Shown one piece after another: positions 44,859 to 64,000 of a stretch of DNA of 64,000 bases. Each line of letters opens with the position of its first letter. Positions within the stretch are counted from its first letter, which is position 1. Location of the stretch: positions 124,001-188,000 of the forward strand of contig JAGYJE010000001.1 of assembly GCA_018402305.1 (NCBI GenBank). The letters run 5' to 3'. The position numbers and the translations under genes are program-made. Under the pieces are notes generated by a model that worked only from the letters and a program-made list of their open reading frames with translations, did not search any database and was not told the DNA's origin. The stretch comes from Puniceicoccaceae bacterium. GTDB lineage: Bacteria; Verrucomicrobiota; Verrucomicrobiia; Opitutales; Coraliomargaritaceae.

Positions 44859-47800
44859 AGGTCGATTTCCCGCAGGGCCACCACGACGAAGCGCCGCCCG
44901 AATGCCTGGTTGATCTCGGAAAGTGCGGCGAGCGGGGTCTTCTCGGGTGGATCGCTGGGGTCTGTCCAATCCGGCACGCGTTGCACAACGGCTTCGAAGC
45001 CGACGCGGATGGTGGCTTCGCCGAGCGGGTTGGTCGACTCACCGATTGAGCGGACGATGAAGGTGTCGGAGCGGACGGTCAGACTGTTGCCCAGCGAGTG
45101 CAACACGTCGGCCTGGGTGAGCCAGCCTGGGAGGCCGACCCCGGTGTAGGGGTCCGGGAGATTATTCCCGTGGGGGTAGGGTGCCGTGTCAAAACGCTGG
45201 ATCCGGTGGGCATTATTGAGACCGGCCCGGTCGATGGCCGCCTGCAGTGCGCCTTTTCGGGTGGATGGCTGGCGGCCGCTCCGAGTTGGCGCGCGACGAA
45301 TTCGCCCATCGATTGGAAGGGGCCGCGCTCGCGCACCTCGTCGACGATCTCGCGGGCGAGGGCTTGAATCTCGGGGTCGCTCAATTCCCGGAAGCCGACC
45401 CAGCTATCGTTGGCTTCGCCAATCGGCTGCGTCAGTCGGTGGAAGGTGCTGCCGCTGGGGGCGTGGGTTTCGGGCTGCCCATCGGGTGAGCGCGTATTCA
45501 GCTGCCGTCCGCGCAGGCTGGCCAGCGCGGCCGTCCAGGCCTCGACGGAGGTGGAGTTGACATTGAAGCCACCCTCCTGCAGGAGGTGTGCGGCTACTTT
45601 GAGGGGGCGGTCCGCCGCGGTCAGGCGCGCCTCGGTTTGGGCTCTATCAAAAGCGCCCAGCCAGGGGCGCAGGCGCGGGTTGCGCAGCGGTGCCTCGCGT
45701 GGGTCGTCCAGCCAATCGCTCAGCTCAGAGTTGCCGGTCCGAGCCACACCCGCGTCGAGGGAGGAGAAGAAAAATCCATCCCAGAGCGCATGATTGAGCA
45801 GGAAGGCGTGGTCGTAGATGGCTAAATTAGGGGAAAAAGACTCGCCTGTGCTGCTGCTGCGAACCTCGCGCGCCACCTCGTCGGTATCGAGATAGGGGGA
45901 GGCCCAGGCATTGCCAAAGGCCTGGGCCGGGGCGAATGCGGTGTCCACGAGGTCGGCGTTGCGAAGGGCCGCCAGGTTGAGGAGCGGCTCAGTGGGGAGC
46001 GAGAAAAAGGGCAGGCGGTCGCGCCCCCGGATACTTTCGTTGGATGCACCGTAGTAGGTGCGCTGGGCGTCGGGGGTCACTTGCAGACCGGAACCCAGGA
46101 AGTCGGCTACCGCTCGGAAGTCGGTCTGATAGTGCGGGCCGGAGGTAAAGTCGGCCCCGGACAGGAGGGTGTTGACGAAACGCTGCCGCGGGTTGGTGGT
46201 GAGCAGGAGATTCGACAAATTACCGACCTCCCCGGCCGTCCGGTTGAAGGTCTCCAGCACGGCGACGGGCCGGGGGGACTCTAATGCCGAAGCTGTTAAG
46301 CGCGGAGAAGTGACTATTTGATCTTCGTATTCGTCGACATCTACGAAGTTGTTGGTGGACTCACCATCATTGTCACGGTAGACCATGACTTCCGATAAGA
46401 TGGCGATCTCGGCCCGACGGTCAAGACGCCCCTCGTTCTCCAAGGTCATCATGTAGTGGAAGCGCCTGTTGGCGAAGTTTGCGGAAATGCGGATTTCGTC
46501 TGTGGGCTCGATGGGCATGGTCCAATTGGCTTTACTCTGGGTGGAAATTCCTCGATCAAGGCGGACCGCAAATCCTCCCCTGAAATTATTATAATCGGCC
46601 TCGCTTTCGAACGGCTTCATGCGAAGCGTCCTCAACGCATCGCTTCCTGTGCGATCGTAAGGAACCGGAATCGAAGTTGCCGGACCAAACAGCCGAACTT
46701 CGCCCGCGCCAATTACGATAGGACGCCGGGTGCTATCGCTGCCAGTGCGGGTTATTTGAAGCAGGAAATATGGATCGAGAGAACGGCCCGACCCTGGCGA
46801 GTTAGGTAGTCCCCTGCCGAGGTGACCGCCCATGTAACTGTGGCCGTATTTATATTCAAAGATATGATCTCCCTCCTCGTTCTTCCGGTATAAATCGATT
46901 TCGAATCCAAGTGGAAAATCGAGACGCGGATGCGCAAAAAAAGCGGGGGCCTCGATGGGCTGGTCGTAGGGGTTCCAAAGGACTATTAAGGGGCATATGA
47001 CCATACGGAGAACCGAGGGATCGTTTGGATCGACCCATGGACTGAAAAATAACAGAATACGGTTAAGAACGGGGGCGACACCGCCCTGCGTCGGCTCGGA
47101 ACCGCTCCAGTAGGGGCTCTTGTTTTTTGTGACGGAAAAGGGATCGCCGGGGTTGGTGACCTCCAGATACTTGCGGTAGAAGTCGCGCAGGTGATCAAAA
47201 GTCGGCACGGCGCCGGTGGTGAAGGTCCGTGTCTCGTCGGCGCGCCCGTCGTAGTCGACCGTGACGACCGGTGGTCGAGCCGAATTGATCGGGGTAAAGA
47301 GCGGTTGCTCGCCCCCCGGTGCCGGGCCGTCGCGAAAGGGATTGGGCGAATCGCCCCAGAGCCTCGCGTTGAAGTCGGAATCGCCCATTTCAAAGGCAGC
47401 GGTCAAGTCGGTCTTCAGCCCGCCCCGCGCCACATCGGCCAAGACCGAGCGGGAGACGGTGGTCCAGTCCGCCGAAAGTTGGTTTGGCGCGTCGCCGCTG
47501 TAGGCGTAGGCCGGATCCAGGCTCAGATCGCCCAGCGAACGAACGCGTTCGCGCCGCTGGGCCCAGCCCTCGCTTGGCTGGGTCAGTGTCGGGCCGCTGC
47601 TGTTAGCAATGCCGATGCCGGGGCCGGCCGGGCTGGCAATGGTGTCGGGCGTCGGGCGCGCGCCCGTATCCTCCCCAAGATTCAGGCGAGCCTTGAGCCC
47701 CTCATCCGACACCGCCCAGGCAAAGCCGCCCCGGCCATCGGTGTACGGCACAAATTGGGCCCGCAGATCGAAACCATCGGCTGCCTCCGTAAAGAGGGCG

Positions 47801-48270
47801 CGCTCTTCGTCGGGCTGAACCGGCGCGTCGATGAAACTGCTCGCTTGCAGAAGCGCCTCCGGACCGGAGACCAACCAGCGCTGGAAGGCCCGCTGCTTTT
47901 CGGCTGCGTAGCGCGGGGCACGCGCCCTCGGGTTGTCTAGCTGCGCGGCGCGGGCACTTTCCCACACGCCAACCATAGCGGAGCGGGCGGAGGCGGGGTC
48001 GAGCAGATCTGCTTGTGCTGTGACACGGCGATCCTCCCCCAGTTCGCGCTGGAGTGTGCCGATCGCTTGAAGTAGGCCCAAGCGGGCGTTTTCCCGGGCC
48101 TCGAGCCGGTCGAGCGTGGCTGCGGCATTGGTTGTTTCAACAGCGGCGAGTGAAAAGATCGAAAGGACCAGGATCAGGACAAAGGCCATCGCCGACAAGG
48201 CGAGCACCAGCGCAAAGCCCTCGCAGCGGCGTGGACAGGGTTTTGAATGGTTGATGGATTTCAGTGCCAT
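44855..48270 (-). CDS. Verru_Chthon cassette protein A-like, interrupted by a frameshift near 45251-45275
   Basis: N-terminus GFALVLALSAMAFVLILVLSIFSLAAVETTNAAATLDRLEARENARLGLLQAIGTLQRELGEDRR; C-terminus continues in a second frame (GALQAAIDRAGLNNAHRIQRFDTAPYPHGNNLPDPYTGVGLPGWLTQADVLHSLGNSLTVRSDTFIVRSIGE...). Confidence 0.72.
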
Positions 48271-48714: not shown

Positions 48715-49986
48715 ATGAAAGTCGATCCTATGAAAATGAAACCACTCGTTTCAACAGCCATTCTGAGCTCTGCGCTGGGAATGTTTTTCGCAAGCAACGC
48801 CGCCGCCCAAAGTCTTTGGACGGGTGGTACCGGTGACTATTCCACAGCCGGAAACTGGACCCCTTCCGGCGTGCCGAGCAGCGGCACCGCCATCGAGATT
48901 AACTCGGGGGAGGCGACATTTTCCGGTTCCGACGCGAACTACGAGCGCGCGGCGACCAGCACCATCGATGGCGGCGCCCTGGTTCTCGATAACGCCCGCT
49001 TTCTCAACGGGCGCGGCGGCCCCGCTATCTTTAATATGGAATCGGGCTCGCTCACTCAGAACGGCACTTACTTCATCGTTGCCCAAAATAATGCGGGCAC
49101 TTTCAACCAGAACGGCGGCACGGTCAACCTCGATCTGAGACGCGGGTTTTTTATAACCGACGGCTCCGCCGGGTCCAATACGGGAACCTATTCGTTAACC
49201 GGCGGCACGCTCGACGTCAACCTGAACGGTCTCGAGTCCAATAACGATGCCCACAATTTTCAGATGGGCCGCTCCAGCGCGGGGGCCGATTTGTTTCATG
49301 TCGACGGGGGCACCTTCAACCTCCGCAACTCCGGCACTCTTGGCACGACGGACAAGCGGGTCTATATCTTTCGAGACTCCACCTTCCGGGTCGATAGCGG
49401 AATTGTCGATGTCGCGGGCATGACTTTTTTCACAGTGGGCCGCGGTGTCAACGCCGGAAGAACGGCTAACTTCCTCGTCAACGGTGGCGATACCGACATC
49501 GCGGTGACCAACGCCTTCATTGTTGGCGGCGGTCAGGACGGCTACATGCAAATGACGAACGGAACACTGGATATTTTACAGTCCAACAACGGCGGCGGTA
49601 ATTTCTGGATCGGCGACACATCGACCACTGCGTCGGCTGTAGTGGAGCAGAGCGGGGGTGATATCACGGTGGCTGGGCAATTGTTACTGGCGCGAAATGT
49701 GAACAATAATGCCAGATACACAATGTCCGATGGGACATTGAGTGCCGAAGACATTGATGTGGTCAACGGCACGGGTCTTTTCGAATTCAACGGCGGCACG
49801 ATCACCCTCGACGGCGACCAAACCAGCTTGCTCAGTGAAGCCTGGTTTGATGCAGCGCCGGGTGCCTTTGCCGAGTTCGATGGGACCTCCACGACTCTGG
49901 CCATCCCTGAGCCTGCCATGGCTTCCGCCCTGGCCGCATTGCTCGCGCTGGGTGCGGCTGCGATGCGCCGCCGTCCGCGCGCTTAA
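48715..49986 (+). CDS. PEP-CTERM beta-solenoid-like protein (paralogue 1)
   Basis: SLWTGGTGDYSTAGNW...GGDITVAG repeats; C-terminus IPEPAMASALAALLALGAAAMRRRPRA. Confidence 0.9.
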   Translation: MKVDPMKMKPLVSTAILSSALGMFFASNAAAQSLWTGGTGDYSTAGNWTPSGVPSSGTAIEINSGEATFSGSDANYERAATSTIDGGALVLDNARFLNGRGGPAIFNMESGSLTQNGTYFIVAQNNAGTFNQNGGTVNLDLRRGFFITDGSAGSNTGTYSLTGGTLDVNLNGLESNNDAHNFQMGRSSAGADLFHVDGGTFNLRNSGTLGTTDKRVYIFRDSTFRVDSGIVDVAGMTFFTVGRGVNAGRTANFLVNGGDTDIAVTNAFIVGGGQDGYMQMTNGTLDILQSNNGGGNFWIGDTSTTASAVVEQSGGDITVAGQLLLARNVNNNARYTMSDGTLSAEDIDVVNGTGLFEFNGGTITLDGDQTSLLSEAWFDAAPGAFAEFDGTSTTLAIPEPAMASALAALLALGAAAMRRRPRA

Positions 49987-50031
49987 TGGTATCGACTCCA
50001 ATGAAAGCCGAGCCTTGGCTTAGTTTCGCGG

Positions 50032-50061
50032 GGGCGGCGGTTGGCTGCCGTCGCCCTTTTT
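50032..50061 (+). terminator. Rho-independent terminator between paralogues 1 and 2
   Basis: GGGCGGCGG-TTGGCTG-CCGTCGCCC stem followed by TTTTT. Confidence 0.72.
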
Positions 50062-50080
50062 CCACAACACATACAAATCC

Positions 50081-51307
50081 ATGAGGCTTCCCGTTTTTTT
50101 ATTTTCAGTTTTTTTCGTATCCCTCGCTGCCAACAGCGCGTTTGGGGCAGAGCGTGAATCGCTCTGGCGCTCGGGCAAGGGTCTTTACAGCGACGAGCAG
50201 CGCTGGCGCCCGACGGGCGTCCCCGCCAGTGCAACGCCCATTCGGATCGAGGGTGGTCAGGTGGACTGGGTCGAGTCGGCGTCCTTCGATTTGAGTCGGG
50301 CGGCGGCTACCTTCATTGATGGCGGCACGCTCCATTTGGTGGGCACCTTCCGTAACGGGGTGGACGGTGCCGGGGAACTACAGCTTGAATCCGGTGAGAT
50401 TCGCCACAGCGGGAACTTTTTTGTCTTGGGGCACAACGCGCCGGGAAAGATGGTCATGACTGGAGGCCGCTTCGAAAGCGATGTGGCGAGCGGCTTTTTC
50501 TTTAGCGACCACGCAGGGGCACCGGTTGAATTCCTCATGCAGGATGGCGCTTTCGAGGTAAGCTTCCGAGAGCGTAGCGACTATGAGGAGCGCTGGCAGT
50601 CCTTCATGGGCAAGGCACAGAATGACCGATGGACGATTCAGGGCGGCAGTGTTGAAATCGATGCGGGCAACGCACCGTTTTTTGGTGATCGGGAAAACCC
50701 CGGGGATGCAAATCGCTTTCGCGCCATCGTTGTTCGCCGCAGCTCGACGATAGAGATCAATGGTGGTTCGGTGCGGTTTCTGCGTCCGGAACGTCTCGCC
50801 ATCGGTGAGAGGACCCCGGGCAATGCCTTGCTCAAACTGGATGGGGGGCGTCTTGAAGTTTTGGATACACGAGGACTGGACGGCGGCATCGCGGTGGGCG
50901 TCGACAGTGAGGGGGTTGTCGTGGTCAACGACGGCCAGCTCACGGTCAGCGTGGCCGAGAACGACGCCGGTCGAAACTGCGGTTTTTTGGTGGGTGCCGA
51001 TGGCGGCTACGGCAGTTTGGAGATCAACGGCGGGGTGGTTGATTTGGCCGGGCTGGACATTGAGATTGCACGCGGTCGCAACAGCGTGGGCCAGGTGCGG
51101 ATGACCGGTGGGGCGCTGCGGGCAGGCGATATCCGGCCCGCAGACTCCGCGACTTCGGCCCGGTTTCAATTTGAGGGCGGTCTCATCGTGCTCGCCGGTG
51201 ACCGCCGCGACATCCTCGACGAAGCCTTCTTTGAAGCGCGGGGCCGTGTTTCGGCCGATTACAACCCGCTCGCTGATGAAACCCGTCTCTCCCTCCCCAG
51301 CCGCTAA
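50081..51307 (+). CDS. Secreted beta-solenoid-like protein (paralogue 2), no PEP-CTERM tail
   Basis: ESLWRSGKGLYSDEQRWRPTGVP... same module order as paralogue 1; ends at DETRLSLPSR. Confidence 0.85.
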   Translation: MRLPVFLFSVFFVSLAANSAFGAERESLWRSGKGLYSDEQRWRPTGVPASATPIRIEGGQVDWVESASFDLSRAAATFIDGGTLHLVGTFRNGVDGAGELQLESGEIRHSGNFFVLGHNAPGKMVMTGGRFESDVASGFFFSDHAGAPVEFLMQDGAFEVSFRERSDYEERWQSFMGKAQNDRWTIQGGSVEIDAGNAPFFGDRENPGDANRFRAIVVRRSSTIEINGGSVRFLRPERLAIGERTPGNALLKLDGGRLEVLDTRGLDGGIAVGVDSEGVVVVNDGQLTVSVAENDAGRNCGFLVGADGGYGSLEINGGVVDLAGLDIEIARGRNSVGQVRMTGGALRAGDIRPADSATSARFQFEGGLIVLAGDRRDILDEAFFEARGRVSADYNPLADETRLSLPSR

Positions 51308-51309
51308 GT

Positions 51310-52371
51310 ATGCTTATGTCGATCCCCCACCTACTCCCCCGTCGCCAATTTATCAAAACCGCTGCCCTCGGTGCAGGCGGTGGCCTCGCTGCGCAAGCAC
51401 TGGGCCCGTCCGCTCTATCGGCGGCCGCCGCTGAGAATCCGCGTCCGCTCCGTGTGATTCACATGACGGACCATCATTTGATGGATTTCATGAACCAGCG
51501 GGGCTCCCAAGCCGGCATCGAAGCCGCCTACGCGCATGCCATGAGTTTGAAGCCCGATGTGATCGCCAATGGCGGCGACTTCTTGACGCACTCCATCGAG
51601 CGCCCGCTGGCCGACATGCAGAAGGATGCCAAGATCATCAACGGCATCCTCCCGACCTCCGGGGTGCAAGTGGTCAACGCCTGTGGCAACCATGACATCT
51701 GGGGCTGGAAGAAATCGAAGTCCGGCGCGACCGGGCGGGAGCCGCTATTCGGGAAGAACTTTTTCCGGGAATACTTCGGGGAGGGTGCGCTCTACCGCCG
51801 CGTCGATTTGGGCACTTGGACGATGCTCGTGCTGGACTCCGTGCAACCCTGGGAAGAGGGCTATCAGGGCGGGCTCGACGATGCGCAGTTCGAGTGGCTG
51901 CAGGGCGAGCTGTCCGCCTCGGACCCGGCCAAACCCATCATCATTCTCTCGCATGTGCCCGTGCTCAGCGCGGGACTTATGCTGCAGGATACCCGCCTCG
52001 GTCCGCCCGATGACCACGCACGCGGCGTGACGATGCCAAAGGGGAGTTGCCATCAGGATCTCTGGCGGGTGGCGGATGCCTTTTGGCGGCACGGCAATGT
52101 GAAAGTCGTGCTGAGCGGCCATGTCCACGTCGATGAGCGGATCGATGTGCTCGGCAGTAGCTACCTGAGCGGTGGGGCGGTTTGTGGCTCCTGGTGGATC
52201 CCCCGCGAGCAGATGGCTATCCGTGCCACCCGGCGCGAGCGAAAAATGGGCAACCCGCACCTTATCCGCACCCCCCGGGCCGATCCCGGCTTCCGCGTCT
52301 TTGATCTCTATCCCGACGGTCGCTTCGACCACGAATATGTCCTGTTCCCCTGGGAGTTCGTCCGGGAATAG
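51310..52371 (+). CDS. Metallophosphoesterase with twin-arginine signal
   Basis: RRQFIKTAALGAGGGLAAQALGPSAL; MTDHHLMD, NGGDFL, CGNHDIWG, LSHVPV, VVLSGHVHVDE. Confidence 0.93.
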   Translation: MLMSIPHLLPRRQFIKTAALGAGGGLAAQALGPSALSAAAAENPRPLRVIHMTDHHLMDFMNQRGSQAGIEAAYAHAMSLKPDVIANGGDFLTHSIERPLADMQKDAKIINGILPTSGVQVVNACGNHDIWGWKKSKSGATGREPLFGKNFFREYFGEGALYRRVDLGTWTMLVLDSVQPWEEGYQGGLDDAQFEWLQGELSASDPAKPIIILSHVPVLSAGLMLQDTRLGPPDDHARGVTMPKGSCHQDLWRVADAFWRHGNVKVVLSGHVHVDERIDVLGSSYLSGGAVCGSWWIPREQMAIRATRRERKMGNPHLIRTPRADPGFRVFDLYPDGRFDHEYVLFPWEFVRE

Positions 52372-52427
52372 CTGCCTGCATCCCTCGCTTTCATTACCAA
52401 TCCACTCACAGCCATCAAGGAACTCAA

Positions 52428-55400
52428 ATGAAAACTGCCTGCGCAAAGATCTCCCTCGCCCTCGCTGTCACGGCATCTCTGATACATCCCCTGCATGGCC
52501 AGTCCACCTGGACGGGCGGGGTCGGTGATTACAACGAAGCGGCCAACTGGTCCACCGGAATCGTGCCCGATGCCACCGCCGAAATCATTCTCGGCAGTGG
52601 AACGGCCCAGCTTAGCGGCTCGGACAACTTGTTTGAACGGGCTGCGGCGAGTCGAATTGACGGGGGTGCACTGGAGCTAGACGACTATCGCTTTCTCAAC
52701 GGTCGGGGTGGACCGGCCACCTTCGACATGGTCAGCGGCTCCCTGGACATGGCGGGCACGTATTTCATCGTCGCCCAGAACAACGCGGGCACCATCAACC
52801 AGAGCGGCGGCACGGTCACTCTGGATCTGCGCCGGGGCTTTTTCCTTGCCGACACCGCCGCCGGATCGAATACCGGGACCTATGCCTTAACCGGGGGCAC
52901 GCTCGATGTCAGCCTGAACGGCTTGGAGGCGAACAGCGATGGCCACAACTTTTGGTTGGGCCGTTCCAGCGCGGGCGCGGATTTGTTTCAGGTCGACGGG
53001 GGCACCTTCAACCTGCGCAACAGCGGGACGCTCGGCGATACGGACAAGCGGCTTTACATCCTGCGCAACTCCACTTTCCAGGTCGATAGCGGGGCTGTCG
53101 ATGTCGATGGTATGACCTACTTCGTAGTGGGCCGGGGCAATCACCCCGGCACCAAAGCGAATATGTTTATCAACGGCGGCACGACCGAGGTGGGCGTGAC
53201 CAATGCCTTCATCGTGGGCGGTGGGCAGAGCGGCCATCTTCGGGTTAACGACGGCACGCTCTCGGTTGTGCCCTCACACACCGGTGCGGGGGATTTTTGG
53301 ATTGGTGACGGTGGCAGCACCACCTATGCCACCGTCGAGCAGACCGGGGGCACCCTCGACATCGCGGGCACCCTCACCCTTGGACGCAATGCCAATGTCG
53401 ATGCGCCGGAATATTTGCTGCGCGGCGGCAACCTGGTGGCAGGCGCTTTGCAGGCGGGCCTCAGTCCCAACGGGCGTTTCTACTTTCAGGACGGGACGAT
53501 CCAGATCGCCGGTGACGGCAGTACCCTGGTGTCCGAGCCCTGGTTCATCACCTTGGGGACGCCCCAGGCGATTTACGACTCGATCAGCGATCGCACAACG
53601 ATCACGACCACGGCCCCCGCCACCACGCCGGCCAGCTACCGCTATTTCCGCTTTCAAGCCGACTTGCTGGGTTCCGCTCTGGAGGCAGGCACGGTGCAGC
53701 TGGCGGAATTTGAATTTCTCAATGCGGGTGCGGCGCTCGACCTAAGCGCCGCCACCGTGACCAACCCCGGCGGCGACAACCTGATCGTGGACGACGCACC
53801 GGTCCATCCAGCCGATTTAGTGGCCGATGGGAACGTCAACAGCAAATGGCTCGACTCGAACAACGCGCCCCTCGTTTTCGATTTCGGCAGCGAGGTCACG
53901 ATCGACGGCTATCGTTTCACCACGGCCAATGATTTGCCCGCGCGCGATCCTGTGCGCTGGACCTTGGAGGGCAGTGCTGACGGTTCCAATTGGGTGGTGA
54001 TCGACCGTAATATTCGGGCCGACCTCACGCCCCGTGGGCGGCAGCTGCGTACGCTCGACTTTCCGCTGCCCGCCTCGGTCGAGGAGGGGGATCTGGTTTG
54101 GACGGGCTCCGAAAGCGGCGACTGGGACTTGAGCGATCTCAACTGGGATGAAGGCGGTGCCCGCTCCTGGAACAACGCCGGTCTCCCCGCGAGGGCGACC
54201 TTTGACGGGGCCACGCCCCTGGCCATTACGGTGACCGAGCCCGTCACTATTGGTGAAATGGATTTTCAGGCACCCGGCTATGCGATCGGCGGCTCGGGGC
54301 CGCTCACACTGGCCGGTGCCGCGCGCGTCGAAACCAGCGAGGATGCCACCATCAGCACGCCCATCGAAGGCATCAGCGGTTTGAAAAAGACCGGTTCCGC
54401 CCAGCTTACGCTCTCCGGTGCCAACAGCTACAGCGGAAGCACCACGGTGGATGCGGGTGAATTGAACATTGCTGGGAATGGCTCCCTGAGCGGGGGCGGC
54501 GGTTTCATACTCGCAGGCGGCGCTAGCGCACGGGCCACGCTGCGTATCGACACCACCGATACGGTGGAGGCACCCGGCGCGATGATCGTCGGGGGCGGGC
54601 AGGACGCCGCCGCCGCGGTCCGTCTGTTGTCCGGGACCTTGGTCACAAACGGCCCCGGCGTGACGTACACGGAATTCGGAGGCGGTGCCAGCAGCACAAA
54701 AACCGCTGCCTACGGCGCACTGCACCTTGAGGGTGGACGCTTCGACGCGGGCGGCGGGGGAAGTGCTTCCGGGATTCGCGTGGGCAACGACGGCCTTGGC
54801 TTGATCGAACAGACGGGCGGCGAGCTGATCGTGCCCCGCTGGTTCGCCATCGGCGGCGAGGGGAATCTCGAAGGCGAAGGTGTCGTCAATCTGTTGGGTG
54901 GCACGACGGAGGTGGCGTCCGGCTTCCGCTTTCTCATCAGTGACCGTACCGGCTCCATCGGGACGTTGAACATCGGCAGCCTCGCGGGTGGCTCGGCTGA
55001 GGTGACGAGCCTGAACACGACTGGGCTGACCGTCGGTTCGAATACCAATGCCGAGCGCGCCACGCTCAATTTAAACGCCGGCCAATTGACCCTCGGCGGA
55101 CCGCTCTACCGGAACAGTGCGAATGCGACGGCAATTGTTAATTTAAATGGCGGCACGCTCCGGGCCGGTGCGGATGAGAGCGTTCTGGTGGCCGACAGTC
55201 TGACCGCCGCCAATCTTTTCCGTGGGGGTTTGACCGTTGATACCAACGACTTCGTGAGCCGCATCACCGCTGACCTGATCCGTCCGCTGGGCAGCGGGGT
55301 CTACCCGGCGGGTGGCGAAATCGCCGTGCCCGACGGCGGGAGCGGCTACCTCGGCGCGCCCATCGTGCGGGTGGCCACGGATGGTTCCGGCAGCGGTTTG

Positions 55401-56564
55401 ACGGCGACGGCCCGCCTCGATGGGGACGCCGTGGTGGCCGTCGTGCTGACCAGCCCGGGGGAAAGCTTTGCCGCGGGTGACCTCGTCAGTTTCACCTTCC
55501 ACGGAGGCGGCGCGACCGCGCCTGCCGTCGACTTTGACTACGAACTGACGCCGGGCGACCTCGCCGACAACGATGCAGGCACGCTCACCGTGACCGGCGG
55601 CGGCCGTTTGATTCTGGACGGCGAAGTCGCCTCGACCGGAGCCACGCAGGTGCTCGGTAACAGTATCCTCGAAGTGAATAACTTCCTCGGTGAGACCGAG
55701 CTAACGGTGGGTCCCGGGTCGACCTTGACCGGGGCCATCGATACACTCGGGGCGGTCAACATCAATGGGAGCTTCGCCCCCGGCACCGGGGTCGGTCTCG
55801 CGAGAGGCCTATCCGCCATCCGCTTCGGTCCCGATGCCAGCTATCAGTTTCAAGTCGTGGACTGGACCGGAACAGCTGGCTTGGGCTATGATTCAGCGGA
55901 ATTCGATGATACGGCGCTGAGCACGACCACGAGCCAGCCGTTCCGGGTGGAGATCGACGGCACCGGCATTCGTAACTTCGCCGAGGAGAACCGCAGCTTT
56001 GTTCTCGTCGACTCCTTCTCCGTGAGCGGATTGACGGCGGATAACTGGACCGTCTCGACCAGTAATTTTCCCGGTTCGGGTACATGGGCAGTGGAGGATC
56101 AGGACGGGCGTCTCGTGCTGGCCTACACCGCCGGCTCGGTGCCCTTCAGCCCCTACGCCTTCTGGGCCAGTGGATTCGAGGAACTCACGGACGCCGATCC
56201 CGCGGCCGATCCCGATGGCGACGGCCTGCCGAACCTACTCGAATTCGTCCTGCTAAGTGATCCCACCGTGCCCAACGCAGGCAATTTGGCTCAGGGCGCC
56301 CTCGACTCGGCGGGCGATTTTGTCTTCACCTTTGTCCGCAGCGCGGAGTCGGTGTCGGCAACGTCGCAGTCCTTCCAATACAGCGAGGATCTGGTCTCCT
56401 GGACGACCCTGCCGATCCCGGCCAGCAGCACCGGCAACATCCAGATTGAGACGGACGTGCCAGCCGCCGGCAGTGAAACGGTGACCGTTCGCATCCCTGC
56501 AACCGACCCGGCACGGGAACGCCTCTTCGGGCGGCTTCAAGTGCTGGAAGCTGCGGTGGATTGA
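52428..56564 (+). CDS. Giant secreted beta-solenoid-like protein (paralogue 3) with discoidin-like domain and autotransporter-associated repeats
   Basis: STWTGGVGDYNEAANW; YRYFRFQADLLG...KWLDSNNAPLVFDFGSEVTIDGYRFTTANDLPARDPVRWTLEGSADGSNW; LTLSGANSYSGSTTVDAGEL; C-terminal DPDGDGLPNLLEFVLLSDP. Confidence 0.92.
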   Translation: MKTACAKISLALAVTASLIHPLHGQSTWTGGVGDYNEAANWSTGIVPDATAEIILGSGTAQLSGSDNLFERAAASRIDGGALELDDYRFLNGRGGPATFDMVSGSLDMAGTYFIVAQNNAGTINQSGGTVTLDLRRGFFLADTAAGSNTGTYALTGGTLDVSLNGLEANSDGHNFWLGRSSAGADLFQVDGGTFNLRNSGTLGDTDKRLYILRNSTFQVDSGAVDVDGMTYFVVGRGNHPGTKANMFINGGTTEVGVTNAFIVGGGQSGHLRVNDGTLSVVPSHTGAGDFWIGDGGSTTYATVEQTGGTLDIAGTLTLGRNANVDAPEYLLRGGNLVAGALQAGLSPNGRFYFQDGTIQIAGDGSTLVSEPWFITLGTPQAIYDSISDRTTITTTAPATTPASYRYFRFQADLLGSALEAGTVQLAEFEFLNAGAALDLSAATVTNPGGDNLIVDDAPVHPADLVADGNVNSKWLDSNNAPLVFDFGSEVTIDGYRFTTANDLPARDPVRWTLEGSADGSNWVVIDRNIRADLTPRGRQLRTLDFPLPASVEEGDLVWTGSESGDWDLSDLNWDEGGARSWNNAGLPARATFDGATPLAITVTEPVTIGEMDFQAPGYAIGGSGPLTLAGAARVETSEDATISTPIEGISGLKKTGSAQLTLSGANSYSGSTTVDAGELNIAGNGSLSGGGGFILAGGASARATLRIDTTDTVEAPGAMIVGGGQDAAAAVRLLSGTLVTNGPGVTYTEFGGGASSTKTAAYGALHLEGGRFDAGGGGSASGIRVGNDGLGLIEQTGGELIVPRWFAIGGEGNLEGEGVVNLLGGTTEVASGFRFLISDRTGSIGTLNIGSLAGGSAEVTSLNTTGLTVGSNTNAERATLNLNAGQLTLGGPLYRNSANATAIVNLNGGTLRAGADESVLVADSLTAANLFRGGLTVDTNDFVSRITADLIRPLGSGVYPAGGEIAVPDGGSGYLGAPIVRVATDGSGSGLTATARLDGDAVVAVVLTSPGESFAAGDLVSFTFHGGGATAPAVDFDYELTPGDLADNDAGTLTVTGGGRLILDGEVASTGATQVLGNSILEVNNFLGETELTVGPGSTLTGAIDTLGAVNINGSFAPGTGVGLARGLSAIRFGPDASYQFQVVDWTGTAGLGYDSAEFDDTALSTTTSQPFRVEIDGTGIRNFAEENRSFVLVDSFSVSGLTADNWTVSTSNFPGSGTWAVEDQDGRLVLAYTAGSVPFSPYAFWASGFEELTDADPAADPDGDGLPNLLEFVLLSDPTVPNAGNLAQGALDSAGDFVFTFVRSAESVSATSQSFQYSEDLVSWTTLPIPASSTGNIQIETDVPAAGSETVTVRIPATDPARERLFGRLQVLEAAVD

Positions 56565-59500
56565 GACCTTGGTCGATGGTGCGATTTGATAGGTCCTGTT
56601 CTTTCATCAGCCTCTGCCTGGCACTGAGCGGCTCTGCCCTCGATGGCCAGGCAGTCTGGCTGGGCGGGACGGGCGACTTCGCGGAGGGCAGCGGATGGAG
56701 CGGTGGCACCGTGCCTCTGGAGACGGAGGCTGTGCGCATCAGCAGCGGCACCGCCTCGCTTGATGGAGAAAATCTGTTGCGCTCGGCCACGACCACGCTC
56801 GACGGCGGCGGTCTGTCCGTGTCCAACGCCTCCTTCCTGCAGGCGGGCACGGCCGCGGCGCGCTTGGAAATCTCTGATGGGCGCTTCGATTTTAACGGCC
56901 CCATCTTTAGCCTGGCCTCGCGCTATGAGGCTGAAGTGGTGCAGACGGGCGGCATCGTGGAGGCCACCGTGACGCGCGGCATGTACTTTAGCCGAAGCGG
57001 TGCCCTCTCCGGACGCCGCACGGATTTCCGCATGGAGGATGGCCTCTTTGAAGTGACCTACGCGGTGGCCAACCCATCGCCCTCGGAGTTTCAATTCATG
57101 GGGCAAAACGGCAACGACACCCTGGTCATCAACGGTGGACTCATGCGTTTTGATGGAGGCACCCGGAGGCGTATGGACTTGCAGCGCAATGCGCGCATCG
57201 AAATCAATGGCGGCGCATTTGAAGTGAGCGGATTCTCCCGCTTCTCCATCGGTCGGGACCGGGCGGGGGAGGCCTCGGTTACCGTCAATGACGGTGCCTT
57301 TCGCATGTTGGAGAGCCGGGTCGACGCGGGCGGTATCACCATCGGCGATTACACCGACGGCCGCCTGAACCTCAACGGAGGCCGCGTGGAAGTGACGCCC
57401 TCATCGACCAACGCGAGCTCCCGGCGGAGCGGTCTAATTGTCGGGCGTAAGGGGAAAACTGATACCGGGCGCTCGGAGGGAACGGTGTTCCAAAGCGGTG
57501 GCGTCTTCGACCTGAGCGGGCTGGATTTGACCCTGGGCGACAATGTGAACGGGAGTTTCGGCGGGCGGGGTCGCTATATTATGACGGGGGGGCGTTTGCT
57601 CGCCCGCAAGGCCGGGACCTGGAGTGGGGGCACTTACCAGGCCGACGAGCCGGGCGATTCCTACTTCTTTTTTCACGCGGGCGAAATTGTCTTGGCCGGC
57701 GACCAGCGGGATTGGCCCGATCAGGCCTTTGTTTATTCGCGCTCGGCCATCCAGCGCGAATACGATGCGGTGGCCGATGAAACACGGCTCACGGCGGTGC
57801 CGGATTTTAGCCACCCAGCCACCCACGCCTATTTTCGTTTCAGCATCGACCGGCGGCGGGGTGGTGGCTCCGACCCTCGGGAAATGGTGCAACTTTCGGA
57901 GTTTGTCCTGCTGCGGGACGGGCAGGCCATTGCCATGAGCGAGGCAACGGTCAGTAACCCAGGCGGCAGCAACCCGAGCGGGGAGGAGCCCTTCCGTAGT
58001 GTCGATGGGGATACAGAAACCAAATGGCTGGACTTTAATGGCGAACCTCTCGTCTTTAGTTTTCCGGAACCGGTTACGGTGGATGCGTATCAATTTGTCA
58101 CAGCCAACGACTTCCCCGACCGCGACCCGGCGCGTTGGACTCTGGAGGGCAGCGATGACGGCGAAATCTGGGTCGTGCTCGACCGACAGGCGCGGAACTA
58201 CCCGATCTCAAAGCGGCGCTTCGAGGCGAGCCTGCCCTTCGCTTTGCCTGCGACTCCCGATGCACCCTATGCACCCCCCGTTTTTCAGCTTCGTTACCTG
58301 CGCTTTCAGCCCACCTCCACACGCGAGCCCGAGGCCGGGGTGACCCGGCTGGCCCGCCTCGAATTTTACCGTGACGAGACGCGGGTCTTTCCCGATGCAA
58401 TCGAGTCAATCATCGCCGGCGGTGCGACGGCGGCCGAGCGCGAACGCGTCAACGACGGCCTCGTACGCAGCGAGTGGGAAGAACGGGCGAGTGGCGGCGG
58501 GCTGGAGTTTGATTTTGGCAGTGAGGTGGCGCTGGATTCTTTTTTGCTGGCGACCGGCGGCTCCGATTCGGGAGCGGATCCAATACGTTGGCTCATGGAG
58601 GGTAGTTTGGACGGGGTCTTTTGGTTTCCTCTGGATGATCGGCGGGTGCAGCCCTTTGGCACCCCGAGTGGGCGTTACACTGCCTCGGCGGTGACCGCTT
58701 TTCAGCCAGTCACACCAGACGGGCTCGGTCTGGAGTGGCGTGGCTTTCAGGATGGTGTTTGGAATACCAGCACGGCCAACTGGGACTCGGCGGGGCCGAC
58801 ACCTTGGCGCAATGGCGGTGGATTCATTGCGGAGTTTGGCTCGCTCGGGCCCAAACGCGTCGATGTCGAGGGCACGATCGAGGTGGATGGGCTCTTGGTG
58901 AGCGAGCCGAACTACCGATTCTCCGGCGACGGTCCGGTGGTCTGGCTTGGCAATGCCGAAGCTGATTTGAAGGCGGATGTCTTATGGTCGGTCCCCGTGG
59001 AAGGGGTATCGGGCTGGCGCAAACGCGGTGCGGGCGCGTTCCGGCTGCGTGCACCCGCGACACTGGCCGGGCGGGTCGATATTGAGGCGGGTGCGCTGAG
59101 CTTGGATAATGGTTCGGGCTGGTCGGGCGGGAGCGAGCTGCGAGTGGGCTCGGGGGCGGGCAGCCGGGGTCAATTGAGCTTTGTTGGAGCGGGGGATTAT
59201 GACTTTGCCTCCCCGACCTCCGAAACCTGGGTCGGTGCCGACATCGACGCCAGCGGCGGCGTCTGGCAAAGCTCGGGCGAGGTCCGGCTCGGCGGCCCTG
59301 CGAGCGGCTACCTGCGGCTCGGCGGCAGTGCGGGTGCCTACGGAGCTTGGCAGCTACAAGGCGGACGGCTCGACGCCTCCACCGGAGGGCGCTCGGGCGC
59401 ACGGGTCGGCGATGGCGGGCACGGTGTCTTTCACCAGAGCGGCGGGGTCTTTCTTTGCGAGCGTTGGTTCTCCATCGGTGGCGACGGGGGCGCGGCGGGT

Positions 59501-61186
59501 GCTTCGGTGGCCAGCTTCACGGGGGGGCGTGCGGAGCTTGTATCGATAGGTCGGATACAGCTGGCCGAGCGGACCGGCTCCATCGGGACGCTCAACCTCG
59601 GGACACAGGCCGGTGGCAATGCCGAAGTGGCGGCCCAGAGTGAACAGGGTATTATTGTTGGCCTGGGCGATGCCGCGACGCGGGCGGCCGTTCATTTGAA
59701 CGCGGGCACGCTCGTTTTGCACGGACCCCTGCACCGTTCAGGTAGCGGTGTCGACGCGGTCGTCGGGGCGGATGGCGGCACGCTGCAAGCGGGTCGGGCT
59801 GACATCGTGCTGGCCGCAGACTCGCTGAGCGGAATCGATTTCTACCGCGGTGGCCTGGAGGTCGCTACGGCTGGCTGGGATGTGACTCTGGATACCCCCC
59901 TGCGGCCCGCCGAAGGCGCGGGCTTCTACCCGCAAGGCGGCTGGCTTGCCGTCGCCGATGGCGGGGCCGGCTACGTCGGTCCGCCCCTCGTCGAGGTGAC
60001 AGGCTCCGGCAGTGGCTTGCCGCCGCAAGCCATTGTGGTGATTGAGGACGGGGTGGTCACGCGGGTGCTGATGACGGCCCCCGGGGAAAATCTCGCACCC
60101 GGTGAGACGCTGTCTTTTCGCTTCGTCGCGGGTGGCCCCGAGCGGGCGGCGCCGGATTTCACCCATATCCTGAGTGGCGACGAACTCTCCGCCGAGCGCG
60201 GTGGTTTGCGCAAAACCGGGAGCGGGCGATTGTTTCTGACCGAAGGCCTCGGTCCGGTGGGAAGGTCCCGTGTCGAAGCGGGAGAATTGGCCCTCGCCAC
60301 CGGCAGCACGAGTGAGGCGGCCATCGAGGTGGGCGCGAACGCCGTCCTCAGTGGCGCCTTCAACGCTTCGGGGGATCTGAAGATTGCCGGGCGTTTCGCG
60401 CCGGGACCGGCGGCGGCTGCAGTGGAACTCGACGGGGAGCTGGTCTTCGCTTCGGGTAGTGTATTGGAAATAGAGCTACAACGCATGGATGCCGTCCCCG
60501 GCACCGACTATCCGGATATCCGCGGGAAGCGGACTCGCTTTCAGGGGTCGGCCGCGAATCCGGTGCGCGTCGAGGTGGACCTGAGTGTTTGGGCGGCGGC
60601 CCCGGCGGGCAACCGCGATTGGGTCCTCCTCCGCAGTGACCAATTTTCTGGTTTTTCTGAGGACGCCGTCGAGCTGCAGCTTTCGGGCGCACCGGGCGGT
60701 GGTTGGTGGCGCTTGCAGCAAACGGGCAGCGAGCTTCGTCTGGCGTATCGAGTCGAGCCGGAGGGTGATTATCTGGACTGGTTGGGCGTCGAGGATGCGG
60801 GTGCGCGTCCCTCCCCCTTCGATGATTTAAACGGTAGTGGACGGGCCAATTTGCTCGAATATATCCTCGGTGGATCGGCCGATCAAAGCGGTCTGGCCAG
60901 TGAGTTCCGCTTCGATCGATCGGACGATTCGTCGGGTCCGGTGGTGCAGTTTCGCCGGAGGATCGCCGGGGCGGGCCTGGGACGTCATTTTTTGGAGTCG
61001 AGCCCGGATCTCGTGGAATGGGAGCGGCGTGAATTGTTGCCAAGCGCCGCTGACGGAATCATCGTGGAGATGATTCCCGAGCAGCCGACCATGGAAACCG
61101 TAACCGTTGAACTCGGCTCTGAAGAGCTTGCAGACCGCGCCTTTATTCGCTTCGTCGTGGAACCTTATCCAGAACTCATTCCTTAA
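56561..61186 (+). CDS. Giant secreted beta-solenoid-like protein (paralogue 4) with two discoidin-like segments
   Basis: AVWLGGTGDFAEGSGW; HAYFRFSIDRRR...KWLDFNGEPLVFSFPEPVTVDAYQF and LRYLRFQPTSTREP...LEFDFGSEVALDSFLL; TTGA overlap with the upstream stop, ATG at 56576. Confidence 0.92.
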   Translation: MRPWSMVRFDRSCSFISLCLALSGSALDGQAVWLGGTGDFAEGSGWSGGTVPLETEAVRISSGTASLDGENLLRSATTTLDGGGLSVSNASFLQAGTAAARLEISDGRFDFNGPIFSLASRYEAEVVQTGGIVEATVTRGMYFSRSGALSGRRTDFRMEDGLFEVTYAVANPSPSEFQFMGQNGNDTLVINGGLMRFDGGTRRRMDLQRNARIEINGGAFEVSGFSRFSIGRDRAGEASVTVNDGAFRMLESRVDAGGITIGDYTDGRLNLNGGRVEVTPSSTNASSRRSGLIVGRKGKTDTGRSEGTVFQSGGVFDLSGLDLTLGDNVNGSFGGRGRYIMTGGRLLARKAGTWSGGTYQADEPGDSYFFFHAGEIVLAGDQRDWPDQAFVYSRSAIQREYDAVADETRLTAVPDFSHPATHAYFRFSIDRRRGGGSDPREMVQLSEFVLLRDGQAIAMSEATVSNPGGSNPSGEEPFRSVDGDTETKWLDFNGEPLVFSFPEPVTVDAYQFVTANDFPDRDPARWTLEGSDDGEIWVVLDRQARNYPISKRRFEASLPFALPATPDAPYAPPVFQLRYLRFQPTSTREPEAGVTRLARLEFYRDETRVFPDAIESIIAGGATAAERERVNDGLVRSEWEERASGGGLEFDFGSEVALDSFLLATGGSDSGADPIRWLMEGSLDGVFWFPLDDRRVQPFGTPSGRYTASAVTAFQPVTPDGLGLEWRGFQDGVWNTSTANWDSAGPTPWRNGGGFIAEFGSLGPKRVDVEGTIEVDGLLVSEPNYRFSGDGPVVWLGNAEADLKADVLWSVPVEGVSGWRKRGAGAFRLRAPATLAGRVDIEAGALSLDNGSGWSGGSELRVGSGAGSRGQLSFVGAGDYDFASPTSETWVGADIDASGGVWQSSGEVRLGGPASGYLRLGGSAGAYGAWQLQGGRLDASTGGRSGARVGDGGHGVFHQSGGVFLCERWFSIGGDGGAAGASVASFTGGRAELVSIGRIQLAERTGSIGTLNLGTQAGGNAEVAAQSEQGIIVGLGDAATRAAVHLNAGTLVLHGPLHRSGSGVDAVVGADGGTLQAGRADIVLAADSLSGIDFYRGGLEVATAGWDVTLDTPLRPAEGAGFYPQGGWLAVADGGAGYVGPPLVEVTGSGSGLPPQAIVVIEDGVVTRVLMTAPGENLAPGETLSFRFVAGGPERAAPDFTHILSGDELSAERGGLRKTGSGRLFLTEGLGPVGRSRVEAGELALATGSTSEAAIEVGANAVLSGAFNASGDLKIAGRFAPGPAAAAVELDGELVFASGSVLEIELQRMDAVPGTDYPDIRGKRTRFQGSAANPVRVEVDLSVWAAAPAGNRDWVLLRSDQFSGFSEDAVELQLSGAPGGGWWRLQQTGSELRLAYRVEPEGDYLDWLGVEDAGARPSPFDDLNGSGRANLLEYILGGSADQSGLASEFRFDRSDDSSGPVVQFRRRIAGAGLGRHFLESSPDLVEWERRELLPSAADGIIVEMIPEQPTMETVTVELGSEELADRAFIRFVVEPYPELIP

Positions 61187-61208
61187 ATCCAATGAACCCT
61201 CAAAGCCC

Positions 61209-63191
61209 ATGAACATTCTGTCTCCACTCGACTGGACGATTATCGTCTGCTTTATTCTTCTCATCACGGGCGCAGGCCTATTGATGTCCAAGCGCGCCGC
61301 CAGCGGCTGGGATGACTACCTGCTGGGCGGGCGCAAGCTGCCCTGGTACCTCCTCGGCATGTCGGGGATGTCAAAGTGGTTCGACGTGGCCGGGACCATG
61401 ATCATCACCTCCTTTTTGTTCATGTTGGGGCCGCAGGGGCTCTTCGTGGAGTTCCGGGGTGGGGCTGTGCTGGTGCTGGCTTTTCTTCTCGTCGTGGCGG
61501 GCAAGTGGAACCGCCGCTCCGGTTGCCGGACGGAAGCGGACTGGCAAATTTTCCGCTATGGCACAGGTAAAGACGCCGACGCGGCCCGCTTTCTCGCAGC
61601 GATCGTGGGCATCCTCGCGGTGGTCGGAGGGCTCGGTTATCTCGTCAAGGGGGCCCAGCTCTTCCTCGGCATGTTTCTGCCCTTTTCCCCCACCGTGGCG
61701 GCACTCAGTCTGGTCGGGATCACTACACTCTACACCATGTTTGCCGGGTTCTACGGGGTGGTTATTACGGATTTGATTCAGGGCCTGGTCATCCTTCTTT
61801 GCTCCGTCATCATCGGGATCATCGCCTGGTCGGCCATTGGTAGTGTCGAGAGCCTCGGGGCGACGGCGACCGCCGTCACGGGGAACGCGGGCTGGCTGGA
61901 CTACGCACCGGCCTGGAATGTGGACATGCCGGAGGCTTACGGCGCCTATGAGGGGCTGATTTTGGTGATGCTCTTTTACCTCATCCGTAACACCTTCTCC
62001 GGGGTGGGCGGAGGCAGCGAGCCGCGCTTCTTCGGTGCCAAGAGCGACCGCGAGTGCGGGCTGCAATGTTTGCTTCAGGGTGCGGTGGTGATGTTTCGCT
62101 GGCCGATGATGATCGGGATTGCGGTGCTCGGTATTTTCTTTGTCTCCCGCGAGATGCCGGATGCGGCCATTCCCCAAGAAGCCGCCCAAATTCTCAAAGA
62201 GCAGCATCCCACTATTCGGGAATCCCAGTGGGTGGGAATGGTTTCCGGCTATGCCAATCGACCCGAGGCGGTCGATGCGGCGCTGCAAGCGGATTTAAGT
62301 CGGGTGCTGGGTGAGGACTGGCCGGAGAAACTGCGCCTGGTCGGTTACCACGGCACGGTCAACCCCGAGCTCATCCTGCCCGCCGTGATCAAAACGGAGC
62401 TCCCCGTCGGCCTGCGGGGGCTCCTTCTGGTGGCCATGCTGGCGGCCCTCATGTCGACCTTTGACTCGGCCCTCAACGTGGCCAGTGGGCTCTTCGTCAA
62501 CGACATCTACCGGCGCTGGTTGCGACCCAAGGCGAGCGAGAAGGAATGCGTGCGTGCCTCCTATGTGACGGTTCCCCTGCTTGTCATGCTGGGTGTCTGG
62601 CTGGGGCTCGGCGCACACAGCATCAATGACATCTGGGGCTGGTTGGTCATGGGGCTGGGCACGGGGTCGGCGGCACCCGCCATTCTGCGCATGATCTGGT
62701 GGCGGATGAACGGCTGGGGTGTGGCGGCCAGTCTCTTTTGCGGAACCATTGCCGCGATTTTGCAGCGCGCCCTCATTCCCGAATTGAATGAATGGTTTCA
62801 GTTTCTGCTCATGGGCACGATTTCCTTTTCCGCCGCGATTGGGGTCAGTCTGCTGACCCGCCGCACCGACGACGCCACGGTGCTTAACTTTTACCGAAAG
62901 ACCAAGCCCTTTGGCTGGTGGAGGCCGATCCGCAGTCAACTAGCGGAGTCCGAGCAGCAGGCCATCCTGCGGGAGAACCGCACCGACATGATCGCCATCC
63001 CCTTCGTCCTGCTCGCCCAGGTCACGCTCTTCTTGATCGCCATGCTCGTGGTCATTCACGACTACGCCGGGATGCTGACGGTGCTGCCGCTCTTCCTCAT
63101 CGGTGCGGCCGGTATGTGGTGGTTCTGGTGGCGTCCTCTGGATGGCATGGAGGGCGGCGGACGTCACAACACAATCCAGTCTTCCAAGTAA
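61209..63191 (+). CDS. Sodium:solute symporter family protein
   Basis: MNILSPLDWTIIVCFILLITGAGLLMSKRAASGWDDYLLGGRKLPWYLLGMSGMSKWFDVAGTM; about a dozen hydrophobic segments; GLLLVAMLAALMSTFDSALNVASGLFVNDIY. Confidence 0.94.
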   Translation: MNILSPLDWTIIVCFILLITGAGLLMSKRAASGWDDYLLGGRKLPWYLLGMSGMSKWFDVAGTMIITSFLFMLGPQGLFVEFRGGAVLVLAFLLVVAGKWNRRSGCRTEADWQIFRYGTGKDADAARFLAAIVGILAVVGGLGYLVKGAQLFLGMFLPFSPTVAALSLVGITTLYTMFAGFYGVVITDLIQGLVILLCSVIIGIIAWSAIGSVESLGATATAVTGNAGWLDYAPAWNVDMPEAYGAYEGLILVMLFYLIRNTFSGVGGGSEPRFFGAKSDRECGLQCLLQGAVVMFRWPMMIGIAVLGIFFVSREMPDAAIPQEAAQILKEQHPTIRESQWVGMVSGYANRPEAVDAALQADLSRVLGEDWPEKLRLVGYHGTVNPELILPAVIKTELPVGLRGLLLVAMLAALMSTFDSALNVASGLFVNDIYRRWLRPKASEKECVRASYVTVPLLVMLGVWLGLGAHSINDIWGWLVMGLGTGSAAPAILRMIWWRMNGWGVAASLFCGTIAAILQRALIPELNEWFQFLLMGTISFSAAIGVSLLTRRTDDATVLNFYRKTKPFGWWRPIRSQLAESEQQAILRENRTDMIAIPFVLLAQVTLFLIAMLVVIHDYAGMLTVLPLFLIGAAGMWWFWWRPLDGMEGGGRHNTIQSSK

Positions 63192-63202
63192 AGTTAAACC
63201 CA

Positions 63203-64000
63203 ATGCTCTCGAAATTCACCCAATTCCTCTCCCTGAGCATGAGCCTGACCCTGAGCCTGCCCCCGCTGAATGCCCAATCGACCTGGAATGGCGGCGCGGG
63301 CGATTTCAACGAAGCGTCCAACTGGTCGCCCTCGGGGGTGCCGGCACAGAACACGCCTTTGACCATCGCGGCGGGCACAGCTACGGCCAGCGGGAGCGAT
63401 AGCTTTTTCGAGCGCGGCGCGGATACCCGCATCGAGGGCGGCGATTTGGTTCTCAATAATCTACGCTTTCTCAACGCCCGGGGAGGGGAGGCTCGCTTCC
63501 GTTTGGATGCGGGCTCCCTCCAGCACACGGGCACGTATTTCATCGTTGGCCAAACCACGAGCGGGCAATTTATTCAGCAGGGTGGTGCGGTCCAGACAGC
63601 CGTCAGCCGGGGCTTCTTCCTCTCCGACGGCGGCGGCGGGAGCAGCCTTCTGCAGTTGTCCGGGGGCAGTTTTGCGGTGGAGATGAACGGAACTTACAAC
63701 ACAGAGCTGCATAATGTCTGGATGGGACGGGGCGTGGCCAACGGCGGAGCGAATGATCGCCTGGTCGTGGATGGCGGCAATCTTTCGATTCGCAATACCG
63801 CCACCGCTCCGAGCGAGCGCTGGTTTAAAATGACCCGAAACTCAAGCCTGCTACTCGAATCGGGCCGCATCGATTTGCTCGACTTTCAAGCCGTGGCCAT
63901 CGGCCAGGGGCGTTCCGGTGTGGAGGCCTCGGACACGGCCAGCATGATTTTGCGTGGCGGCACGATGCGGGCGGAGGTCCGGGTTGCCTTCGTGCTTGGC
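63203..64000 (+). CDS. Secreted beta-solenoid-like protein (paralogue 5), truncated by the window end
   Basis: Translated by hand: MLSKFTQFLSLSMSLTLSLPPLNAQSTWNGGAGDFNEASNWSPSGVPAQNTPLTIAAGTATASGSDSFFERGADTRIEGGDLVLNNLRFLNARGGEARF...; frame open to base 64000. Confidence 0.88.
   Translation, partial: MLSKFTQFLSLSMSLTLSLPPLNAQSTWNGGAGDFNEASNWSPSGVPAQNTPLTIAAGTATASGSDSFFERGADTRIEGGDLVLNNLRFLNARGGEARFRLDAGSLQHTGTYFIVGQTTSGQFIQQGGAVQTAVSRGFFLSDGGGGSSLLQLSGGSFAVEMNGTYNTELHNVWMGRGVANGGANDRLVVDGGNLSIRNTATAPSERWFKMTRNSSLLLESGRIDLLDFQAVAIGQGRSGVEASDTASMILRGGTMRAEVRVAFVLG

Follow-up and report, generated by a model that had tools for sequence, protein, structure and literature searches.

Organization of the Gene Cluster

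The 64,000-nucleotide stretch analyzed here, referred to as the window (G000:C1:124001-188000), comes from a Puniceicoccaceae bacterium and carries, toward its 3' end, five paralogous genes named SolA to SolE. Their products, predicted to be secreted, share an N-terminal module (module 1), and the genes are interleaved with those of a phosphoesterase and a sodium:solute symporter. The following 20 kb of the contig (L007) were also taken in, positions past 64000 being given in window numbering. The same-strand gene run reaches ~76949, ~13 kb beyond the window edge, and the genes listed below are the 5' part of a 28-kb, 11-gene, single-strand cluster.

48715..49986, + strand: SolA, signal peptide, module 1, and PEP-CTERM-like tail, 423 aa
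50033..50055, + strand: terminator-like hairpin between SolA and SolB (consensus match only)
50081..51307, + strand: SolB, signal peptide and module 1, 408 aa
51310..52371, + strand: calcineurin-like metallophosphoesterase (PF00149, E 2.7e-12), predicted to be exported by twin-arginine translocation (Tat; RRQFIK)
52428..56564, + strand: SolC, signal peptide, module 1, F5/8 type C, PATR, module 2, and TSP3-like C-terminal domain, 1378 aa
56561..61186, + strand: SolD, signal peptide, module 1, F5/8 type C, module 2, and C-terminal domain
61209..63191, + strand: SSF sodium:solute symporter (PF00474, E 2.7e-30)
63203..64000, + strand, cut by the window edge: SolE, signal peptide, module 1, LamG, SASA carbohydrate esterase, and C-terminal domain

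The SolD start is either TTG 56561 or the in-frame ATG 56576, and that of the symporter was corrected to ATG 61209. In the genome, the full SolE has 982 aa, ends at 66151, and carries the SASA (PF03629, E 7e-29) and Laminin_G_3 (E 3e-10) domains. It is followed, in this order, by genes for a glycoside hydrolase family 38 (GH38) alpha-mannosidase, a PATR protein (gene 9), an NPP-type phosphodiesterase, and a purple-acid-type metallophosphatase with an N-terminal module 2. Successive genes of the cluster are separated by 94, 2, 56, -4, 22, 11, 133, 385, 71, and 30 nt. The first-pass annotation, made from the sequence of the window, had described these open reading frames (ORFs) as co-directional and closely packed, with a TAA-GT-ATG junction at 51305, a 4-nt overlap at 56561, and 11 nt before 63203. 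The ORFs were found at the coordinates it gave, with the same packing and junctions; the genes it described are real, but their cluster is not bounded by the window edge.

Because terminator-like hairpins follow both SolA and the PATR gene, the latter much stronger (L007:9754-9785, 12 pairs and a T run), the 11 genes are probably carried by several transcripts, two of which would open with a solenoid gene bearing a PEP-CTERM-like tail. Given the hairpin at 50033-50055, the SolA gene itself probably yields a separate or attenuated transcript.

Enzymes and Transporter of the Cluster

The GH38 enzyme matches PF01074, PF09261, and PF07748 above cut-offs and contains the SHWDREW, CDLFGH, and HPHDS motifs. 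It aligns over its full length with bacterial GH38 structures (3lvt, E 1.6e-85; SpGH38, 2wyh, E 1.7e-75), SpGH38 being an alpha-1,3-mannosidase (PMC2815779), and it has no signal peptide. The expected catalytic motifs were found by motif search in the GH38, SASA, NPP-type, and purple-acid-type proteins. In the Tat metallophosphoesterase, GD, GNHD, H, and GHVH were recovered in the same way, the first motif (DHH in MTDHH) being read from the sequence. With the NPP-type enzyme, which carries a LamG domain, and the purple-acid-type enzyme, the cluster thus encodes three phosphoesterases from two unrelated superfamilies.

A co-directional glycosidase, accessory hydrolases, a transporter, and secreted binding-type proteins, the gene content of a polysaccharide-utilization-type locus, are all present. 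By type, this is a glycan-utilization cluster, a known kind of locus, and a role in glycan or organophosphorus catabolism is assigned with good confidence. It resembles carbohydrate-active enzyme (CAZyme) gene clusters outside Bacteroidota and Bacteroidota polysaccharide utilization loci (PULs) in its co-directional surface-binding-type proteins, esterase, glycosidase, importer, and accessory hydrolases. It differs from them in having an SSF symporter, paralogous beta-solenoids absent from Pfam, and three phosphoesterases; no SusC or SusD domain was found among the 11 genes, which are not a PUL in the strict Bacteroidota sense.

The Solenoid Paralogues

Module 1 spans ~370 N-terminal residues of the ORFs at 48715, 50081, 52428, 56561, and 63203. 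Pairwise BLASTP comparisons of its copies give E-values from 1e-145 (SolA-SolC, 62% identity) to 2e-25 (SolA-SolD, 28%), and a whole-genome search with SolA recovered exactly these five plus a sixth, weak match. Because of these two results, chance can be set aside as the source of the likeness. With 45 alignment columns invariant across all five copies, the five paralogues proposed in the first-pass annotation are confirmed. The closing motif that it assigned to the four complete members is near exact in SolB and SolD, but loose in SolA and SolC.

The same annotation regarded these proteins as secreted beta-solenoids, and structure prediction agrees with it. The AlphaFold 2 model, computed with the window's five modules as sole input, is an all-beta solenoid (pLDDT 83, pTM 0.85), after which come a low-confidence linker and a helix corresponding to the PEP-CTERM-like tail of SolA. 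Identification of the fold by Foldseek against the Protein Data Bank (PDB) was tried and rejected: nothing was found under E 0.001, the top match being the UpaB autotransporter (E 0.16). Beta-helices account for many, though not all, of the weak matches.

A match to a characterized Pfam family would have spoken against the first-pass proposal, and none above threshold was found for module 1; assignment to a known Pfam or NCBIfam family was rejected, SolA having no match at E<=0.01. One sub-threshold candidate is the Cthe_2159 beta-helix, whose carbohydrate-binding domain (PF14262) is matched by SolB alone (E 1e-4, below the curated cut-off) and which also appears, at non-significant ranks, in the SolA Foldseek results. 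Carbohydrate binding by the Sol proteins is putative only. PATR proteins, also known as autotransporter-associated beta strand proteins (PF12951, TIGR02601), share a general solenoid style with the cluster. One of these two models is matched above cut-off by SolC, outside module 1, and by the PATR gene, whose products contain PATR repeats; neither is matched in this way by SolA, SolB, SolD, or module 1, and no autotransporter beta-barrel was detected by Pfam.

Module 2 comprises ~450 residues and is found after F5/8 type C in SolC and SolD, and at the N-terminus of the purple-acid-type phosphatase. Glycine-rich repeats and a PATR context are the sole grounds on which it is called a putative solenoid. 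Comparison of modules 1 and 2 gave only a weak local profile match. The two modules are rare, unnamed families of predicted solenoids fused to enzymes, and constitute a new element of the cluster.

C-Terminal Domains and Sorting

SolA and the PATR protein end in PEP-CTERM-like tails, seen for SolA in both its sequence and its model, and PF07589 was not reported for either protein at E<=0.01. The genome has two exosortase genes (PF09721, above cut-off). A different C-terminal domain of ~110 aa (a TSP3-like D.DGDG..NLLE, then a stretch ending in F.RL.V) is common to SolC, SolD, SolE, the NPP-type protein, and two proteins of contig C23, and also occurs in homologues from genomes G634 and G586. 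It is a candidate sorting domain, used in place of PEP-CTERM.

These tails could also belong to an adhesin or extracellular-matrix locus, where an exopolysaccharide made by the cell itself would be assembled or reshaped by PEP-CTERM solenoids and modified by the enzymes. The exosortase genes would suit such a role, as would the autotransporter beta-helices among the nearest, non-significant fold matches; PEP-CTERM/EpsH systems are reported to be associated with exopolysaccharide (PMC1569441). Nevertheless, the 11 genes include no glycosyltransferase or polymer-export gene, and an importer together with a cytosolic exo-mannosidase indicates catabolism, which makes a matrix function very unlikely.

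A Second Locus and a Shared Upstream Element

Upstream of SolA lies a 26-bp element, which recurs before a second locus of the same genome:

48618..48643, + strand: cis-element AGTTTATTTTGT-N4-TTAAAGTAAC, 26 bp, 71 nt before the SolA ATG
C23:129082-129107: second copy of the element, 103 nt before the first gene of the second locus
G000:C23:129211-143308 (L104:4211 to L105): second locus

The two copies are identical at 23 of 26 positions, a level reached by 0/300 shuffled pairs, and at <=3 mismatches the 3.1-Mb genome contains only these two sites (control: 0). Finding the pattern at these sites, from which it was derived, adds no independent evidence; such evidence comes from the shuffle test and from the uniqueness of the element. 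The gap of 385 nt that precedes the PATR gene holds a looser copy (GTTTATT-N12-GTAAC; 69294-69317, on L007), the sole further match in 151 kb of the genome, and shuffles gave none. The half-element GTAACNTTAAAGTAAC alone is non-specific (4 matches versus 7 in the control), and three other PEP-CTERM-type genes (10209, 18188, and L009:6844) lack the element. It is a new, putative regulatory link between the glycan cluster and a phosphonate-type locus.

The second locus encodes two secreted proteins, one ending in a PEP-CTERM-like tail and the other combining LamG with Exo_endo_phos. It also encodes an ABC transporter, two further enzymes (an amidohydrolase and a HAD hydrolase resembling PhnX), and a module-2 protein that shares 50% identity with SolC. 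Module 2 is, therefore, found alongside organophosphorus genes twice in one genome. The ABC genes best match the NCBIfam models PhnS2, PhnT2, and PhnU2 (E 1e-106 to 1e-148), but score below the TIGR03261, TIGR03265, and TIGR03262 equivalog cut-offs, and are not assigned as a phosphonate (2-aminoethylphosphonate) transporter. They may be likened to the AepXVW transporters, which take up 2-aminoethylphosphonate in marine bacteria (PMC8316502), from which they also differ in being accompanied by a module-2 solenoid and an Exo_endo_phos enzyme.

The two loci could be read mainly as a phosphorus-scavenging regulon, in which solenoid and LamG scaffolds hold secreted phosphoesterases that draw on many sources to free phosphate or small organophosphorus molecules, the GH38, esterase, and symporter being passengers or sugar recyclers. 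The three phosphoesterases of the first locus, the Exo_endo_phos protein, PhnX-like hydrolase, and ABC genes of the second, the common element, and the AepXVW precedent all favor it. It is, however, rather doubtful: no convincing E. coli-type PHO box was found at either locus, the transporter scores fall under the equivalog cut-offs, and the symporter orthologues are linked to mannose enzymes rather than phosphate genes, as described below.

Conservation in Other Genomes

Module 1 is rare: at E<=1e-12, 7/388 genomes of the phylum carry it. At strict thresholds, it is absent from the rest of the genus, a further class-wide search added no genome, and a named-organism search gave a single weak match, in a Chthoniobacterales metagenome-assembled genome. 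Gene neighborhoods were examined around module 1 (G074, G578, G586, G519, and G634), GH38 (G073, G156, G048, G098, G005, G124, and G022), the phosphoesterase (G194, G215, G220, and G155), and the symporter (G026, G022, G075, G098, and G115).

An independent module-1 gene, in G074, codes for a protein with a PEP-CTERM tail and is immediately followed by a gene for a 2436-aa fusion of LamG, GH92 alpha-mannosidase, and metallophosphoesterase (L028:12033-19346). Two proteins of G578 keep the SolC order of module 1, F5/8 type C, and PATR (36% identity over SolC 27-808); both are at contig ends, with no symporter adjoining, and the sole phosphoesterase-like ORF seen is ~8 kb away. In G634, a module-1 gene is followed by a GH29 fucosidase gene, with no phosphoesterase noted nearby. 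The first-pass annotation expected the symporter and Tat phosphoesterase to be conserved neighbors of the solenoids, and named their lack of conservation as grounds for dropping its proposal; neither is found near module 1 elsewhere. A conserved trio of solenoid, phosphoesterase, and symporter was rejected, as it is absent from the homologue neighborhoods examined.

The G634 arrangement would suit a glycan locus whose substrate is an alpha-mannoside free of phosphate, either acylated or resembling an N-glycan, with the phosphoesterases acting on something else; GH38, SASA, SSF, and carbohydrate-binding-type domains make up an ordinary glycan set. This alternative is unlikely, since the cluster has three phosphoesterases, one of them fused to its own module 2, and G074 has the GH92-phosphoesterase fusion.

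Symporter orthologues (46-49% identity) in G026, G075, G022, and G115 are near GH99-family (above cut-off in G026 and G115, below it in G075), GH38 (G115 and G022), or phosphomannose isomerase and ROK kinase genes (G022); the G098 orthologue has no obvious such neighbors. Among the GH38 orthologues (43-50% identity), that of G156 adjoins D-lyxose isomerase and PfkB kinase genes, plausibly a route for free mannose. On the basis of these two independent neighborhoods, alpha-mannose is held to be a fairly likely component of the substrate.

A Phosphate-Substituted Mannose Glycan as Proposed Substrate

The favored reading is a glycan-utilization locus for a phosphate-substituted, alpha-mannose-containing glycan, which is held with about as much doubt as confidence. 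A phosphate substituent is suggested by the number of phosphoesterases in the cluster (three), by the fusion of one of them to module 2, by the GH92-phosphoesterase fusion of G074, and by a precedent in Bacteroides thetaiotaomicron, in whose alpha-mannan breakdown GH38 takes off phosphate-linked mannose and phosphatases take off phosphate (PMC10154615). The alpha-mannan PULs of this species resemble the cluster in combining GH38 with phosphatases, which there act on a phosphate-bearing mannan, but have other surface proteins and another importer, as well as GH76, GH92, GH99, and GH125, which the cluster lacks.

In such a locus, SolA to SolE, several with F5/8 type C or LamG domains, would be secreted as beta-solenoids, SolA and the PATR protein probably being processed by the PEP-CTERM/exosortase route and the others ending in the different C-terminal domain. 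Outside the cytoplasm, their solenoid, F5/8 type C, and LamG parts would bind the polymer and keep the enzymes on it. There, the SASA esterase would strip acyl groups, and the NPP-type phosphodiesterase, Tat metallophosphoesterase, and module-2-fused purple-acid-type phosphatase would cut and remove phosphate. The SSF symporter would then take up released mannose or a small alpha-mannoside, whose hydrolysis GH38 would complete in the cytosol. The surface capture and uptake suggested by the first-pass annotation gains strength, as a theme, from the downstream esterase, GH38, phosphodiesterase, and phosphatase, but its unit of symporter, phosphoesterase, and solenoid is not conserved.

Several observations weigh against this reading. 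Calcineurin-like and NPP-type enzymes have many substrates, nucleotides and lipids among them. No GH76, GH99 (endo-mannanase), or GH92 was found in the cluster, the rest of the genome not having been searched. In G578, G586, G519, and G634, module 1 and phosphoesterases are not linked, and the neighborhoods of the GH38 and SSF orthologues contain neither module-1-family solenoids nor this cluster's phosphoesterases. The phosphate argument comes from one genome and one partial parallel. In the literature on Verrucomicrobiota, no described phosphomannan cluster of such type was found.

A broader proposal, offered tentatively and as rather improbable in full, is that the two loci are co-regulated. 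Unnamed families of surface beta-solenoids would present esterases and phosphoesterases, and glycans decorated with phosphate or phosphonate would thereby yield both sugar and phosphorus, the sugar entering via the SSF symporter and the phosphorus compound via the phosphonate-type ABC transporter. Polymer capture at the surface by bacteria without SusC/SusD is poorly understood. The locus provides two unnamed enzyme-fused solenoid families, a candidate non-PEP-CTERM sorting domain, and a cis-element joining glycan and phosphonate-type clusters, and makes testable the idea that glycans serve some of these bacteria as a source of both carbon and phosphorus.

Other Genes in the Window and Genome

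Sugar-related genes are also found at 3669-42153 of the window (sulfatase, GH123, GH95, a second GH38 at 28996, GHL6, and a Glucosamine_iso and PIG-L fusion). The same region also has an AraC regulator and, at 10209, a solenoid of PEP-CTERM type. On contig C12 (L009:6844-10364), a PEP-CTERM protein with a W.G opening adjoins an NPCBM and LamG protein, forming a further small solenoid-type cluster. Finally, a large, prepilin-like protein of 1063 aa (GFALVLALSAMAFVLILVL) and its small partner, both without a Pfam match, are encoded on the minus strand at 44136-44969 and 45079-48270 of the window. The pair recurs near glycan-type loci in G026, immediately after the symporter orthologue, and in G073, and the large member is also found in G156.

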